Source: Methanosphaerula palustris E1-9c | GTDB lineage: Archaea > Halobacteriota > Methanomicrobia > Methanomicrobiales > Methanospirillaceae | Length of the DNA stretch: 64,000 bases | Reading direction: 5' to 3' | NCBI RefSeq assembly: GCF_000021965.1 | Contig: NC_011832.1 | Span: forward strand, 558,001 to 622,000 | Shown: positions 9,635 to 16,433 of the stretch, in pieces | Numbering within the stretch: the stretch's first letter is position 1 | Layout of the letters: every line of letters starts with the position of its first letter | Notes under the pieces: model-generated | Told to the model about the DNA's origin: nothing | What the model saw: the letters and a program-made list of their open reading frames with translations, nothing else | Databases searched by the model: none | Translations under genes and position numbers: made by a program

Positions 9635-10807
9635 ATGAGTATTCAGTCTCCCAACTATCAGATATTACAGATTGATTCCATGTCATCCCTTCTCCCCTCG
9701 TCTGAAGATATTCTGTCTCTCCTCTGCAGCATGATAGATCAGTTACCAGACCCCGGGTTTGTGGTGGAGCGTTCTGGTCGTATCATCGGTTGGAATCGAC
9801 GGCTCGAAACGCTCTCGGGTGTTTCCCGTGATGATATGGTGGGGATGGATGGGACGGCGTGCGGAATCCTCTTCTATGGGGACGAACGTCCCCCTCTTGT
9901 CGACCTGATACTTCCATCCCGGACCCCTCCTGATCTGATCCCGTATGCCATCCTGGAACTGGATCCGGGGGCTGTATCAGCAGAAGTTCATCTGCCCTGT
10001 CTCAGGGGGGGGGCCGGTGGCCTGGTGCTCGCGAAGACTGCTGTGGTGACGGATCGTTCGGGGGCGGTGATAGGGGGGATCGAGACTTTGACCGATATCA
10101 GCGCTCAACGATCTGCTATTGAGCGTTTGCTCTCTGCCAATGCCAATCTCCAACAGGCCAACCGGGTGGTCAGGCATGACATTATGAACGAACTGACGAT
10201 TGTGCTCGGGTATCTCAATCTTGCAGGCGAATCGGTCACCGACCCCGAAGTGCAGGGGGATCTGGCCCGGGCAAGCCTTGGGGCGCGGCAGATTCAGCAA
10301 CTGATCGAGTTCACGCGTGAGATTCGGTCCCATGGCACAGTCCTCCCATCCTGGCAGCAACTCGACAAGGTGGTCGCTGCTGCGCTCAAGAACTCCACCT
10401 CCTGTGTCCCCACTGTTACGGTAAGGGGGGACGCGGTTCGTCTCCTTGCAGACTCACTCTTGGTAAGGGTGATCTCTACGCTCCTCACCGATACCTACCA
10501 GCGGGGAGGGAATCTGGTTGAACTCTGGACAGAAGAGCACGGGGATCATCTCTGTATCATCTATACTGATGATGGAGATGGGATCCCTGAATACGAAAAA
10601 GAGCGAATATTTGGTGAAAATTTTGATAAGGTGCGGGGATATGGCCTCTTCCTTGATCGTGAAATTCTGGCGGTGACCGGGATTACTCTACGGGAGACCG
10701 GGGATCCGGACAGGGGGGCCCATTTTGAGATAGTCGTGCCGGCCGGCGCATATCGGATCCTCACTGGCCAGGAAGTATCTGGTTCAGATTGGGTCGTTGA
10801 TCTTTAG
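9635..10807 (+). CDS. PAS-domain histidine kinase
   Basis: Cytosolic sensor kinase, no membrane segment seen. PAS domain about residues 30-155 (DQLPDPGFVVERSGRIIGWN), a phosphoacceptor helix with RHDIMNELTIVLGYL (His181), and an HATPase region at about 250-375 with DDGDGIPEYEKERIFGE and GYGLFLDREIL. The N-box, normally NLLxNA, reads RVISTLLTDTYQRGG, so the Mg-binding Asn seems absent. ATG 9635 is taken as the start; ATG 9680 (MSSLLPSSED) is possible. It is divergent from the receiver-PAS gene across about 150 bp with an AT-rich core (AATTATTATAAC) that probably holds both promoters. Confidence 0.85.
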   Translation: MSIQSPNYQILQIDSMSSLLPSSEDILSLLCSMIDQLPDPGFVVERSGRIIGWNRRLETLSGVSRDDMVGMDGTACGILFYGDERPPLVDLILPSRTPPDLIPYAILELDPGAVSAEVHLPCLRGGAGGLVLAKTAVVTDRSGAVIGGIETLTDISAQRSAIERLLSANANLQQANRVVRHDIMNELTIVLGYLNLAGESVTDPEVQGDLARASLGARQIQQLIEFTREIRSHGTVLPSWQQLDKVVAAALKNSTSCVPTVTVRGDAVRLLADSLLVRVISTLLTDTYQRGGNLVELWTEEHGDHLCIIYTDDGDGIPEYEKERIFGENFDKVRGYGLFLDREILAVTGITLRETGDPDRGAHFEIVVPAGAYRILTGQEVSGSDWVVDL

Positions 10808-10844
10808 ATCTGGCAGTCATATTCGTGAGATTACGAGTTGGTTC

Positions 10845-11250
10845 GATGAAACCTCCCCTGGGTCCGGCTCTGTGGCTATGGTAACTCCCTGCTCTGCCCA
10901 GGTGAAAGGGGGCCCGTCTGGACCATCTCATTGTCTTTGATGTCCCCCCAGTGCCTTTGCGTCTTCGGGTTAATCTCAACCCGGCCGGTCGGCTCTCACA
11001 TTCGATAGTCTCTGGGCTGCAGGTTATTGTCCCGGTGTGCAAGTGCCACATGCAGCGATTGGTGATGAGGTGGAGTGGGACCTCCGCATCCGGTACTTCT
11101 ATTGGTTAATTCCATTCGGAGGATGGGAGGATGTCTAGGCTGTCTAGTGTTCTGACTTTTCTTTGTGGAGGATCGGGGTTCCGGGGTGCTCCGTGGTTTG
11201 GGCACGGCCAGGGGAGGCCTTCGGCGCCAAACTCTGCAGATCTCATGCCG
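10845..11250 (-). pseudogene. collapsed fdhB-fdhA remnant
   Basis: A decayed second copy of the formate dehydrogenase genes that lie intact at 12349-15650. Bases about 10853-10916 match intact fdhB around 12847-12911 (shared words GGCTC-GTGGC-ATGG and CTGCTCTGCCC). Directly next to it, bases about 10917-11250 match intact fdhA around 13786-14115: CAGTGCCTTTGC, GTGCCACATGCAGCG, CTCCGCATCCGGTACTTCT, GTTCCGGGGTGCTC and CCTTCGGCGCC recur in order. The roughly 875 bases between those two points in the intact operon are missing, so the 3' part of fdhA and the 5' part of fdhB were deleted together. No long reading frame survives. Orientation is the same as the intact pair. Confidence 0.85.
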
Positions 11251-11368
11251 GTTTTTGTTCCGTTCCGACGGTATTTTTTTATGAAATCTACACGTAATTC
11301 GTGGGTATCACTGCGACAAATGTTAAATTAAAAAAATGTATTACTCATAAAATTAATACTAATTGATC

Positions 11369-11545
11369 ATGGGAGAAATTGAAAAGTGTGAATACTGTGG
11401 GAAGGATGCTATCGGTCTCCAGTCATTTGAGGGCAGTTTTGCCTATGTCTGCGAAGATCATGCTGACGGTCTCCTTCGTGCACTCAAGCCCGGTGAAAAA
11501 AAATCTTATGGTGTTTGTTATCTCGAACGATACGATAACAATTGA
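11369..11545 (+). CDS. small Cys-rich protein (putative metal-binding), unknown function
   Basis: 58 residues starting at ATG 11369 (MGEIEKCEYCGKDA); a TTG two codons upstream is less likely. The CxxC at positions 7-10 and later Cys-Glu-Asp-His (YVCEDH, about 29-34) would make a small zinc site, as in treble-clef or zinc-ribbon mini-proteins. An AT-rich tract just upstream (TTAAATTAAAAAAATG) can serve as promoter. A degraded paralogue lies 340 bp downstream (11889-11990), which shows the family was duplicated here. No function can be named. Confidence 0.65.
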   Translation: MGEIEKCEYCGKDAIGLQSFEGSFAYVCEDHADGLLRALKPGEKKSYGVCYLERYDNN

Positions 11546-11888
11546 TACTTGATTGTTCTCCAAAAATGATAGATGTAACTCCCCGGCGACCTAAAATCTT
11601 GGTGATGGGAGAGATCGTTCAATGCGCCATATGACGAACTCTCCCTTCAGAATACGTTCATCATTCCCTGAAATAAACTGCTGATCCTCTTTTTCAGATC
11701 AGGGTGATTTTACCTAATATCTGCATCTTGCCCAGTGGTTCCCTGGTTAGATTCGTGAGACAAAATTGATGAATTGGAAAAAAATGATAAGATTCTTGGA
11801 ATAATGATGGGTGAGGATGGTGGAAAAACCAGGGTGTGAAAGGATGTGAGGGGGATGCAATCATGATCCCGTCATTAGGGTAATGTGG
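11546..11888. other. spacer without recognised gene
   Basis: About 340 bp between the small Cys-rich gene and its decayed copy. I see no frame with a start, ribosome site and plausible composition. There is a short inverted repeat, CTGATC...GATCAG, around 11680-11702. The base composition is more AT-rich than the flanking genes, in keeping with a decaying region. Confidence 0.5.
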
Positions 11889-11990
11889 TGCCTATGTCTG
11901 CCGGGATTCTGCTGAGGACCTCCTTCTTTCATTCAAACCCAGTTATAAACAGGGGAATGATTATTATTACCCCGAACGATTCGATATCGC
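11889..11990 (+). pseudogene. decayed copy of the small Cys-rich gene
   Basis: Read in one frame this stretch gives AYVCRDSAEDLLLSFKP and then PERFD, which aligns with AYVCEDHADGLLRALKP and LERYD of the intact protein at 11369-11545. DNA identity is also plain (GCCTATGTCTGC, then CTCCTTC, then GAACGAT). The N-terminal half with the first CxxC is missing: an in-frame TAA sits just before the matching part, and the downstream reading runs past the normal end. A broken tandem duplicate. Confidence 0.75.
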
Positions 11991-12348: not shown

Positions 12349-13590
12349 TTATTTGTTGAAACAGTTCAGATAGATCATGTCGCTGCCGGTCTTCGCAAGC
12401 CGGTCGCGCTCTGCACGCTCTTCGACCAGTGCCAGTATCGGCAGTGTCATGTCGACACCCGGTTTGTGGCCGAAGAGATCTTCTAGCTCGACCTGCTGTG
12501 CATGCATGAAGAGGGCGTTCGGGATCTCTGCTGGGCAGAGTTCCTCACACTGTCCACAGTTCACGCAGGAGTCTGATATATGTGCGTATCTAATCAGGTG
12601 GAACATAAAGTTCGGTGGGATCTCTCCTGGAGTGACCAGTGCCGGGTTCTTTGTTGAGCAGTCCACGCAGTAACAGATCGGGCAGGCTTCGATGCATGAG
12701 TAGCACTTGATGCAGCGTGCGGTTGCCTTCATGATCTTTTCGAGCCGCGTCTGTCCCTGACCGAGTTCGGTGAAGTCCTTTGCTCGCCACTTGTCGCCGA
12801 GCTTCAGCATGGCGCCCTCGATCTTTCCCCGGATCTCGATCCCCTTTGCTGGGGCCGGCTCGGTGGCGATGGCGCCTGCCTGCTCTGCCCTGGTGAGGAG
12901 GTCTGCGCCCTTCTGGCTGCAGACTTCGACGAAGGTGGCCTTGCCTGCCTTGTCGCCAATAACACCCCAGTTTCCGCAGGCGAGGTCTGCCTGGCGGGGG
13001 ACCTTCAGCTTGCAGCGGCGACAGTTGGTCCTGCGGCCAAAACCCTCATCCTCAAGGATGTCCATGGCGATACCTTTGTGACCTTCCTCAGTTTCGATGA
13101 TGAACTGTCCCTTGTCGATCTCCTCCTTTTTAACGTCGTTCGGGTCGACTTCGTACTTCTCACGGATCATCGTGCGTGCGAGGGCCGGGCTTACTGAGCC
13201 GCCACAGTTCACCCCGATCATGGTGACATTGTCGAGGTTGATCTGCTTGCGCTTGGCCAGTTCGTATATCCCCATCATGTCGCAGCCCTTGACGGTGACA
13301 CCGAGTTTCATGTCGCTGGCGCCGTCGAGGTACTTCTTGATCAACTTGGAGAGCAGGAGCGTTCCGCAGTGGAGGGAACCTGCCGTGTTGTTCAGGTCTT
13401 CGGGGTTCGTGATCAGGACTGGCTGGGCATCATAGAGGTCAACCCCTCTCTGCACGGTCAGCACTGCATCGACGATCTTGTTTTCAAGTGCATATTTGAG
13501 AAGAGCGGTGACTGCACCCCCACACTCTGCTTTCTTCTGTAGGTCTGCATTGGTGGTCCAGGCCAGGACCATGTCGCCTTTTGCTGCCAT
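12349..13590 (-). CDS. fdhB: F420-dependent formate dehydrogenase beta subunit
   Basis: Passes electrons from the FdhA molybdopterin centre through Fe-S clusters and FAD to coenzyme F420 in the cytoplasm. 413 residues of the FrhB/FdhB family: N-terminal KAECGGAVTALLKYALE, VGVNCGGS-type segment near 145, a Cys group FGRRTNCRRCKLKVPRQADL near 185, and two ferredoxin-like clusters near the C-terminus (CIKCYSCIEACPICYC about 297-312 and CVNCGQCEELCP about 342-353). Its ATG overlaps the fdhA stop by one base (TAATG), so translation is coupled. A broken copy of part of this gene lies at 10853-10916. No fdhC formate transporter is adjacent. Confidence 0.95.
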   Translation of the reverse strand: MAAKGDMVLAWTTNADLQKKAECGGAVTALLKYALENKIVDAVLTVQRGVDLYDAQPVLITNPEDLNNTAGSLHCGTLLLSKLIKKYLDGASDMKLGVTVKGCDMMGIYELAKRKQINLDNVTMIGVNCGGSVSPALARTMIREKYEVDPNDVKKEEIDKGQFIIETEEGHKGIAMDILEDEGFGRRTNCRRCKLKVPRQADLACGNWGVIGDKAGKATFVEVCSQKGADLLTRAEQAGAIATEPAPAKGIEIRGKIEGAMLKLGDKWRAKDFTELGQGQTRLEKIMKATARCIKCYSCIEACPICYCVDCSTKNPALVTPGEIPPNFMFHLIRYAHISDSCVNCGQCEELCPAEIPNALFMHAQQVELEDLFGHKPGVDMTLPILALVEERAERDRLAKTGSDMIYLNCFNK

Positions 13591-15650
13591 TACTGTACCT
13601 CCGGAATCTTCTCAATCCTCACAGAGCACGCCTTGTACTCTGGAATGCTCGCTATCGGGTCGAGTGCATTGTTGGTCAGGATGTTTGCTGCGCACTCCTT
13701 GAAGTGGAATGGCATGAAGACAACACCTTTCTTTATGTCCTTTGTAACCCGTGCACCGATATTGATCTCTCCTCTGCGGGAGATTGCCCGGATCATCTCC
13801 TTGTCCTTGATGCCCAGTGCCTTTGCATCTTCAGGGTTCATCTCGACCCAGCCGGTCGGTTCCTCGCGTTCGAGACTCTCCGAGCGGCGGGTCATCGTCC
13901 CGGTATGCCAGTGCCACATGCAGCGGCCGGTGGTGAGGAGGAGTGGGTACTCCGCATCCGGTACTTCTGCCGGTTGTTTCCATTCGATGGGGGTGAGGAT
14001 GCCGAGACCATCAGGTGTTCCGAACTTCTCCTTGTGGAGGACCGGTGTTCCGGGGTGCTCTGCGGTTGGGCATGGCCAGTGGAGCCCTTCGGCGCCTAAG
14101 CGTGCATAGGTCATACCGCCATAGGATGGTGTGACCTTGGCCACTTCGTTGAAGATCTCTTCAGGACTCTTGAATGCAAACTGCTTCTCGTAACCCATTG
14201 CGGCCCCGAGTTCACAGATGATCTGCCAGTCGGGCTTTGCCTGTCCTGGTGCATCCTGCGCCTTTCTCCAGAGCTGGACACGCCGCTCGGTGTTGGTCTG
14301 GGTTCCGTCGCGCTCTGCGTAGCAGGAGCCCGGAAGGACAACGTCTGCAAGTTCAGCGGTCTCAGTCAGGAAGATATCCTGTACGACCATAAATTCGAGG
14401 TTTTTCAATCCCTTCTCGACGTGGTGAAGATCAGGATCAGAGATCATCGGATTCTCGCCCATGACGTACATGCATTTCAGGGTGCCAGGCTCATCAGCGA
14501 GAACGTTGATCATCTTGGTGACGGTGTACCCGACCTTGCCCTCGGCGATGTCGCATCCCCATGCCTCGGTCATCTTCTTGTGGAGATCTGAGTTGGCGAC
14601 CTGCTGGTAGCCTGAGTAGACGTTCGGCAGGCAGCCCATGTCGCAGGCTCCCTGCACATTGTTCTGGCCACGAAGTGCGCAGACGCCGGCGCCCCGCTTG
14701 CCGAGGTTTCCGGTGATCATCTGCAGGTTGGCTGTGGACTTCACATTATCGACACCAACGGTGTGCTGGGTGATGCCCATCGAATAGAGAAGTGCACTGG
14801 ACTCGGCCTTTGCGATCCACTCGGCTGCAGTGGCGATGTCCGCTGCCGGGAGACCGGTGACCTTTGCCACGTTTTCGAGGCTGTAAGTGTCCTTCATCAC
14901 GACCTCTTTGAGTTTGTCAAAGTCCTTGGTCCGCTTTGCAATGAACTCCTTATCCTCCCATCCATTCTTGATGATGTGCTGCATCAGCCCGTTCAGCAGG
15001 GCGACATCGGTGCCTGAGAAGAAGGGCAGGTACAGATCGGCCTGCTTGGCGGTGGGGGTGAACCTTGGATCTGCAACGATCACTTTTACCCCGTTCAGCC
15101 TGGCCATCATGATCCGGCGGCCGATCAGGGGATGCTGCTCAAAAGTGTTGGACCCGATCACAAAGATGCACTTTGCCTCGCTGATATCCTCGATCGAGTT
15201 GGTCATGGCCCCTGACCCGAAGACGGCTGCAAGGCCGGCGACGGTTGATGCGTGGCACAGCCTGGCGCAGTGGTCGACGTGTGGTGTTTTGAGGACGGCA
15301 CGAGCAAATTTCTGCAACAGGTAATTCTCTTCATTGGAGACACGGGCAGATGCAAGACACGCCATCTCTTCTGGCTTGTATGCTTTGAACTTGGAAACGA
15401 TCAGTGCGTATGCTTCGTCCCAGGATGCCTCGACGAACGTGCCATCCTTCTTGATCAGGGGGGTGGTCAGCCGGTCCGGGCTGTTTACAAACTCGGCTGC
15501 ATAATTCCCCTTTGCACATGTCTTGCCCTGGTTTACTGGGGCACGATGCCATGGTGCGGTGTCGACAACCTTCCCGTCTTTGACGACAAGATTGAACCCG
15601 CAACCTGTTCCGCAGTACGGACAGGTCGTTGGTACGTATTTCATCTCCAT
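13590..15650 (-). CDS. fdhA: formate dehydrogenase alpha subunit, cysteine form
   Basis: Catalytic subunit oxidising formate to CO2 with a bis-molybdopterin guanine dinucleotide cofactor. 686 residues. N-terminal [4Fe-4S] site CPYCGTGC (10-17) and GKTCAKGNY; the metal ligand is Cys132 in DHCARLCHAS, encoded TGC, not selenocysteine. Further family marks are FVIGSNTFEQHPLIGRR, MGITQHTVGVDNVK and the C-terminal dinucleotide-binding part LTTGRCMWHWHTGTMTRRSE. Ribosome site GAGGT nine bases before ATG 15650. Upstream TATA-like and palindromic sequences suggest regulation. Together with fdhB it lets the cell grow on, or equilibrate with, formate. Confidence 0.97.
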   Translation of the reverse strand: MEMKYVPTTCPYCGTGCGFNLVVKDGKVVDTAPWHRAPVNQGKTCAKGNYAAEFVNSPDRLTTPLIKKDGTFVEASWDEAYALIVSKFKAYKPEEMACLASARVSNEENYLLQKFARAVLKTPHVDHCARLCHASTVAGLAAVFGSGAMTNSIEDISEAKCIFVIGSNTFEQHPLIGRRIMMARLNGVKVIVADPRFTPTAKQADLYLPFFSGTDVALLNGLMQHIIKNGWEDKEFIAKRTKDFDKLKEVVMKDTYSLENVAKVTGLPAADIATAAEWIAKAESSALLYSMGITQHTVGVDNVKSTANLQMITGNLGKRGAGVCALRGQNNVQGACDMGCLPNVYSGYQQVANSDLHKKMTEAWGCDIAEGKVGYTVTKMINVLADEPGTLKCMYVMGENPMISDPDLHHVEKGLKNLEFMVVQDIFLTETAELADVVLPGSCYAERDGTQTNTERRVQLWRKAQDAPGQAKPDWQIICELGAAMGYEKQFAFKSPEEIFNEVAKVTPSYGGMTYARLGAEGLHWPCPTAEHPGTPVLHKEKFGTPDGLGILTPIEWKQPAEVPDAEYPLLLTTGRCMWHWHTGTMTRRSESLEREEPTGWVEMNPEDAKALGIKDKEMIRAISRRGEINIGARVTKDIKKGVVFMPFHFKECAANILTNNALDPIASIPEYKACSVRIEKIPEVQ

Positions 15651-15793: not shown

Positions 15794-15840
15794 TTTATAT
15801 GGCTACTGTGGTACAACCTGTTCTAGCGCAGGATGTCCTG
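15794..15840 (+). promoter_or_regulatory. probable promoter of the zinc-ribbon gene
   Basis: TTTATAT at 15794-15800 is a good archaeal TATA core, placing a start site near 15825. Right after it CAGGATGTCCTG (15829-15840) is a 5-2-5 inverted repeat overlapping the first codon candidates, and CAGGATGT is repeated directly. Suggests regulated expression; inference only. Confidence 0.4.
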
Positions 15841-16433
15841 TGCAGGATGTGTCTGGACTGAAGAAGACTCCCATGTTCCCCCTGATGCTGGATCTAGTCC
15901 GGTCGGGTCTCTCTGCAATGGATGGTGTAGTCTTCACCGAACGACAGTGCTGCCCGTATTGTGGCGGGCCCTTACTCGTCCATGATTATAAGGATCGTAA
16001 GTTTGCAACTCTTCTCCAAGGGTCGGACCAGATGGATATCATGGTATCGGTCCGACGTTTTCACTGCCGGTCCTGTCACCGGCTGGTCACTGCCGAAGTT
16101 CCATTCTACCCGGACGTCCACCTCGGATCCCCTGTGGTGGATCTTTGTATCGTCCTCACCCACCAGTTGCCATACTCCCAGGCGGACCGGCTGATTCGTG
16201 ATCTGGGTGTCGTTCTCCACCGTGGCACGATCAGAAACTACGCGACTCTCCCGATCATGCCGGCCGTGACTGATAACCTCTTTGGGATCACCTTTCCTCG
16301 CTCGCTCCTGAACCTGTCATCGCTGGCTGCAGCCAGGAGTGCAGGAGAGCCGATCACCGGGGAGGATGCACTGGCTGCCTGCATGTCCGTGGATTTATCT
16401 AACCAGGAAGTCATCAGATCCTTATCAAAATAG
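15840..16433 (+). CDS. zinc-ribbon / helix-turn-helix protein, transposase-like N-terminal module
   Basis: 197 residues from GTG 15840; ATG 15873 (MFPLMLDLVRSGL) is an alternative. A four-Cys zinc ribbon is clear: CCPYCGGP near 38 and RRFHCRSCHRL near 74, followed by an HTH-like helix pair, SQADRLIRDLGVVLHRGTIR near 122-141. This layout resembles the N-terminal DNA-binding part of ISL3-type and related transposases, but no DDE catalytic domain follows: the protein stops 55 residues later. It may be a domesticated or truncated transposase serving as a DNA-binding protein. It is divergent from fdhA across 190 bp rich in palindromes. Confidence 0.55.
   Translation: MQDVSGLKKTPMFPLMLDLVRSGLSAMDGVVFTERQCCPYCGGPLLVHDYKDRKFATLLQGSDQMDIMVSVRRFHCRSCHRLVTAEVPFYPDVHLGSPVVDLCIVLTHQLPYSQADRLIRDLGVVLHRGTIRNYATLPIMPAVTDNLFGITFPRSLLNLSSLAAARSAGEPITGEDALAACMSVDLSNQEVIRSLSK

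Follow-up and report, generated by a model that had tools for sequence, protein, structure and literature searches.

A decayed partial copy of the formate dehydrogenase genes fdhBA beside the intact operon in Methanosphaerula palustris

Tandem arrays in which fdhA-fdhB units are repeated in one direction are found in several Methanomicrobiales, as at the loci L098, L113 and L140 and in Methanospirillum hungatei (PMC4704411), and all of these arrays are intact. Pseudogenised tandem duplicates of prokaryotes are commonly recognised as a partial copy next to its parent, with strand and order unchanged, marked by frameshifts, stop codons, an internal deletion and neutral codon changes. Here we describe a scar of the fdhBA operon in the archaeon Methanosphaerula palustris E1-9c that resembles both. 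It shares direction and unit order with the arrays but, unlike them, retains only about 12% of the operon length, and the best tree places the event within this lineage. It shows all the listed marks of a pseudogenised tandem duplicate, although it differs from the usual case in that a pair of small genes separates it from the parent operon. The genome announcement of M. palustris (PMC4645200) reports formate dehydrogenase genes and 137 pseudogenes and does not mention the scar, and a literature search on gene remnants returned nothing on its locus. The window that we analysed comprises 64,000 nucleotides (NC_011832.1, positions 558,001 to 622,000 of the forward strand), and all coordinates refer to it unless noted otherwise.

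Structure and edges of the scar

The region from 10841 to 11250 is a decayed copy of about 410 bases, consisting of two joined pieces of the intact fdhBA operon (12349-15650, minus strand; Table 1). In pairwise alignment with 13790-14118, the fdhA piece showed 62 differences at 326 aligned sites, an identity of 81%, together with several indels of 1-4 nt, and its local score of 306 compares with a maximum of 29 among 200 dinucleotide-preserving shuffles. The core of the fdhB piece (10858-10909) matches 12849-12901 with a local score of 57, against a maximum that was again 29 in 200 dinucleotide shuffles, and is 83% identical across 48 nt (10858-10905 versus 12849-12896). Gene order and strand are the same in scar and operon, and the spacing between the fdhA part and its counterpart is constant at 2866-2869. 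Used as a DNA query against the whole genome, the scar retrieved the adjacent fdhA first (E 1.7e-73) and the adjacent fdhB separately (E 3.2e-7). The other fdhA paralogue of the genome (C1:226904-228943, 54% protein identity) was rejected as a source, as it gave just a 52-bp match, at C1:227336. The original prediction had placed a dead second fdhBA copy at 10845-11250, in operon order and strand, and had proposed alignment with the operon as a check; its location is right to within a few bases, and its identification is borne out by the alignments, by the best match to the genome's own operon and by the position of the scar in the best tree.

Table 1. Features at the fdhBA locus of M. palustris (window coordinates)
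Feature	Position	Strand	Description and evidence
Kinase gene	9635-10807	+	PAS/histidine-kinase-like; convergent with fdhBA, ends 34 bp before the scar
Pseudo-fdhB piece	10841-~10919	-	Middle of fdhB, ~codons 225-253; matches ~12832-12916
Internal deletion junction	10915-10922	n/a	fdhB ~12916 joined to fdhA ~13790; alignments, three-way view
Pseudo-fdhA piece	10920-11250	-	~codons 511-620; frameshifted, with stops; matches 13790-14118
Outer homology edge	11245-11255	n/a	119 bp upstream of sm1; sliding test, constant spacing
sm1	11369-11545	+	58 aa, CxxC/CxxH, zinc-ribbon-like; kept beside fdhBA in relatives
sm2, decayed second copy of sm1	11842-11985	+	tblastn 42%, internal TAA; DNA alignment
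fdhB	12349-13590	-	F420-linked formate dehydrogenase beta; Pfam PF04432 1e-38, PF04422 9.8e-27
fdhA	13590-15650	-	Formate dehydrogenase alpha; NCBIfam TIGR01591 880.7 vs cut-off 666 bits

At the internal joint, which shares at most 2-3 nt between its two sides, about 873 bp are absent between fdhB 12916 and fdhA 13790, in agreement with the roughly 875 bp predicted. Sliding tests of 40 bp placed sharp homology edges at ~10841 and ~11250 and the joint near 10920, and detected no remnant at the scar site of either fdhA codons 1-510 or the fdhB codons that follow ~253. The material missing from the scar thus includes some 1.5 kb of 5' fdhA (~510 codons) and some 0.5 kb of 3' fdhB (~160 codons). 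The proposal that the copy was lost by one internal deletion plus drift therefore holds for the drift but not for the single deletion, because both operon ends are gone as well; either at least three losses occurred or, more simply, the duplicated segment started inside fdhA.

Origin and decay

As evidenced by the BLAST table, which covers 61 genomes, the scar is matched best by the fdhA of its own genome, at 79% identity compared with about 71% over similar length for the best relatives. In the best maximum-likelihood tree of 63 fdhA fragments the two are sisters (bootstrap 100, SH-aLRT 87); the end branch of the scar measures 0.37 and that of the intact gene 0.01. Constraining the intact fdhA to group with its nearest relatives, and the scar to stay outside this group, cost 30-32 log-likelihood units, with p values of 0.08 and 0.051 in the AU test. 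A scar older than the split from the near relatives, and with it an ancestral second copy that was lost elsewhere, is therefore unlikely, although the test falls just short of rejecting the older trees. The best tree nevertheless suggests that the scar derives from the neighbouring operon by a local duplication specific to this lineage. Note that with one Methanosphaerula genome sampled, all that can be said of the date of such a duplication is that it followed the divergence from the genera sampled.

Translation in the frame of fdhA reveals frameshifts and stops in the scar, which retains no intact reading frame. To polarise the changes between the fdhA piece and the intact gene we used 32 homologues of relatives; those assigned to the scar are spread over codon positions 1/2/3 as 14/13/11, those assigned to the intact fdhA as 3/1/3, while 22, mostly at third positions, were left unassigned. 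In columns conserved in at least 95% of the relatives, 24 changes fall on the scar versus one on the intact gene. The even spread over codon positions, together with the frameshifts and stops, identifies the scar as a neutrally decaying pseudogene. Judged from its sequence it is a real but ordinary pseudogene of fdhBA, for which we propose no present function.

The corresponding site in related genomes

The two small genes between scar and operon carry information on how the copy may have arisen. sm1 has no Pfam match and matches NCBIfam TIGR04129 below threshold only. Both genes are intact in many Methanoregulaceae, in the order fdhA, fdhB, sm2, sm1 and with the small genes running opposite to fdhAB, so that the pair is taken to be ancestral; the decay of sm2 is present in this genome and absent from most relatives. 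As the pair next to fdhB is ancestral, a relic located beyond it is what would be expected for a tandem copy of a unit fdhA-fdhB-sm2-sm1. To the left of the scar, no leftover copies of sm1 or sm2 or of the intergenic stretch were found. This conserved zinc-ribbon-like pair beside fdhAB is perhaps a more useful lead than the scar itself.

With a DNA profile of fdhAB we searched the sequence upstream of sm1 at 27 loci that have the order fdhB-sm2-sm1; one of them (L014) is too short and a few repeat a genome, and 23 loci from relatives were usable. The original prediction had proposed looking for an intact second fdhAB here in related genomes; none was found in the 23. Strong matches were obtained only in M. 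palustris, at 119-460 bp from sm1, and in one Methanoregula MAG, at 62-330 bp. The latter relic (JANXYM010000043.1, locus L135, 1838-2115; L173 is the same stretch) lies on the upstream side of sm1, about 61 bp away, and comprises the fdhB 3' end together with its stop codon; it is frameshifted, on the same strand as the fdhB of its own genome and 80.8% identical to it, and its polarised changes are distributed as 10/12/17 over the codon positions. In the best tree it falls within a clade of eight rows that includes this fdhB (99/96). L097 and L131 gave weak profile matches at 3.9-4.9 kb; their protein identity to fdhA is only about 25%, and we take them to represent another molybdopterin oxidoreductase and not relics.

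The relics of M. palustris and L135 thus have in common their position upstream of sm1, the strand of the host fdhB, an identity of about 80% to the host gene and the presence of frameshifts, but differ in content, the former combining 3' fdhA with the middle of fdhB and the latter consisting of the fdhB 3' end. As they share no stretch of sequence a direct comparison is impossible, and the trees favour them probably being separate events. That Methanoregulaceae have a duplication hotspot just upstream of sm1, where truncated copies of the neighbouring fdh genes have been taken up again and again, is a generalisation we consider quite unlikely.

Proposed history, alternatives and neighbouring genes

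The scar is most likely the non-functional relic of a tandem duplication, with a unit of about 2.87 kb, that would have been truncated inside fdhA from the start and subsequently underwent deletions and drift. In the Methanosphaerula lineage a segment reaching from the interior of fdhA (~14118) through fdhB, sm2 and sm1 to ~11250 would have been duplicated, corresponding to a unit of 2868 bp (14118 minus 11250), with the second copy located beyond sm1. This copy would then have lost about 873 bp spanning its fdhA'/fdhB' boundary as well as all sequence past the middle of fdhB', along with any second set of small genes, and the remainder would have drifted without selection. A loss on the fdhA side is not needed in this scheme, since a copy that began inside fdhA would never have produced FdhA. 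It is the sharp edge at 11250 from which we infer a start within fdhA, and this outer edge could equally reflect a later deletion instead of the duplication breakpoint. The end of the proposed unit is not seen directly, as no second sm2/sm1 survives to the left of the scar. The relic in L135 indicates that such events recur at this site, and we count it in favour of a duplication.

The original prediction had gone further and read the scar as a sign of past dosage selection on formate metabolism. A full second fdhBA operon that was once present here, kept for dosage and then collapsed through several deletions, would fit the frequent occurrence of complete tandem fdhAB copies in the order (L098, L113, L127, L140, L141, L155, L156, L160), and also the five nearly identical fdh clusters of Methanospirillum hungatei JF1 (PMC4704411). 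Such a history is nonetheless unlikely: the missing ends of fdhA and fdhB have left no trace at the site, none of the 23 usable loci of relatives with the order fdhB-sm2-sm1 has an intact copy beyond sm1, the at least three losses required are more events than a copy truncated from the beginning would need, and the changes in the scar look neutral and give no hint of a prolonged period of function. A complete fdhA may never have been part of the copy, so that past dosage selection is without support here, and the scar is no evidence for it. The existence of full tandem fdhAB copies in the order does make selection on fdh copy number plausible in general. What the scar provides is a bound on one small duplication event in methanogen formate genes, and it cautions that gene scars alone are poor ground for inferring dosage selection.

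The presence of two relics in the same place, one 119 bp and the other ~61 bp upstream of sm1, which derive from different pieces, would also be explained by an ancient second fdhAB beyond sm1 that was common to the family and decayed independently in M. palustris and the L135 MAG, a history that the AU values of 0.05-0.08 would tolerate. The best trees speak against it, in that they place the scar beside its own fdhA (100/87) and the L135 relic in the clade of its own fdhB (99/96), and no other relative in the profile search shows either a relic or an intact copy at the site, so that we regard a common ancient origin as distinctly improbable. A function of the scar in antisense control was considered as well, since the kinase gene on the plus strand ends 34 bp before it, and a rightward transcript of this gene entering the scar would carry RNA with about 81% complementarity to the fdhA mRNA across some 330 nt. 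The drift is even at all codon positions, however, with 24 conserved columns broken; the scar is not conserved among relatives, has no Rfam match and, in a scan for bacterial-type signals, shows no promoter or terminator signal beyond what chance would give. We give this possibility hardly any credence and retain the truncated tandem duplicate as the preferred origin of the scar.

Two neighbouring genes have counterparts in other genomes. Homologues of the kinase gene (30-34%) directly follow fdhB in L088-L091, where the small genes are absent. At 15840-16433, divergent from fdhA, lies the gene for a 197-aa protein with an ISL3-type zinc finger (PF14690), and a PF14690 protein is encoded at the same position next to fdhA in many relatives. 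Given its occurrence at the same place in so many genomes, it is probably not a passing insertion but a conserved DNA-binding protein or a domesticated piece of a transposase.
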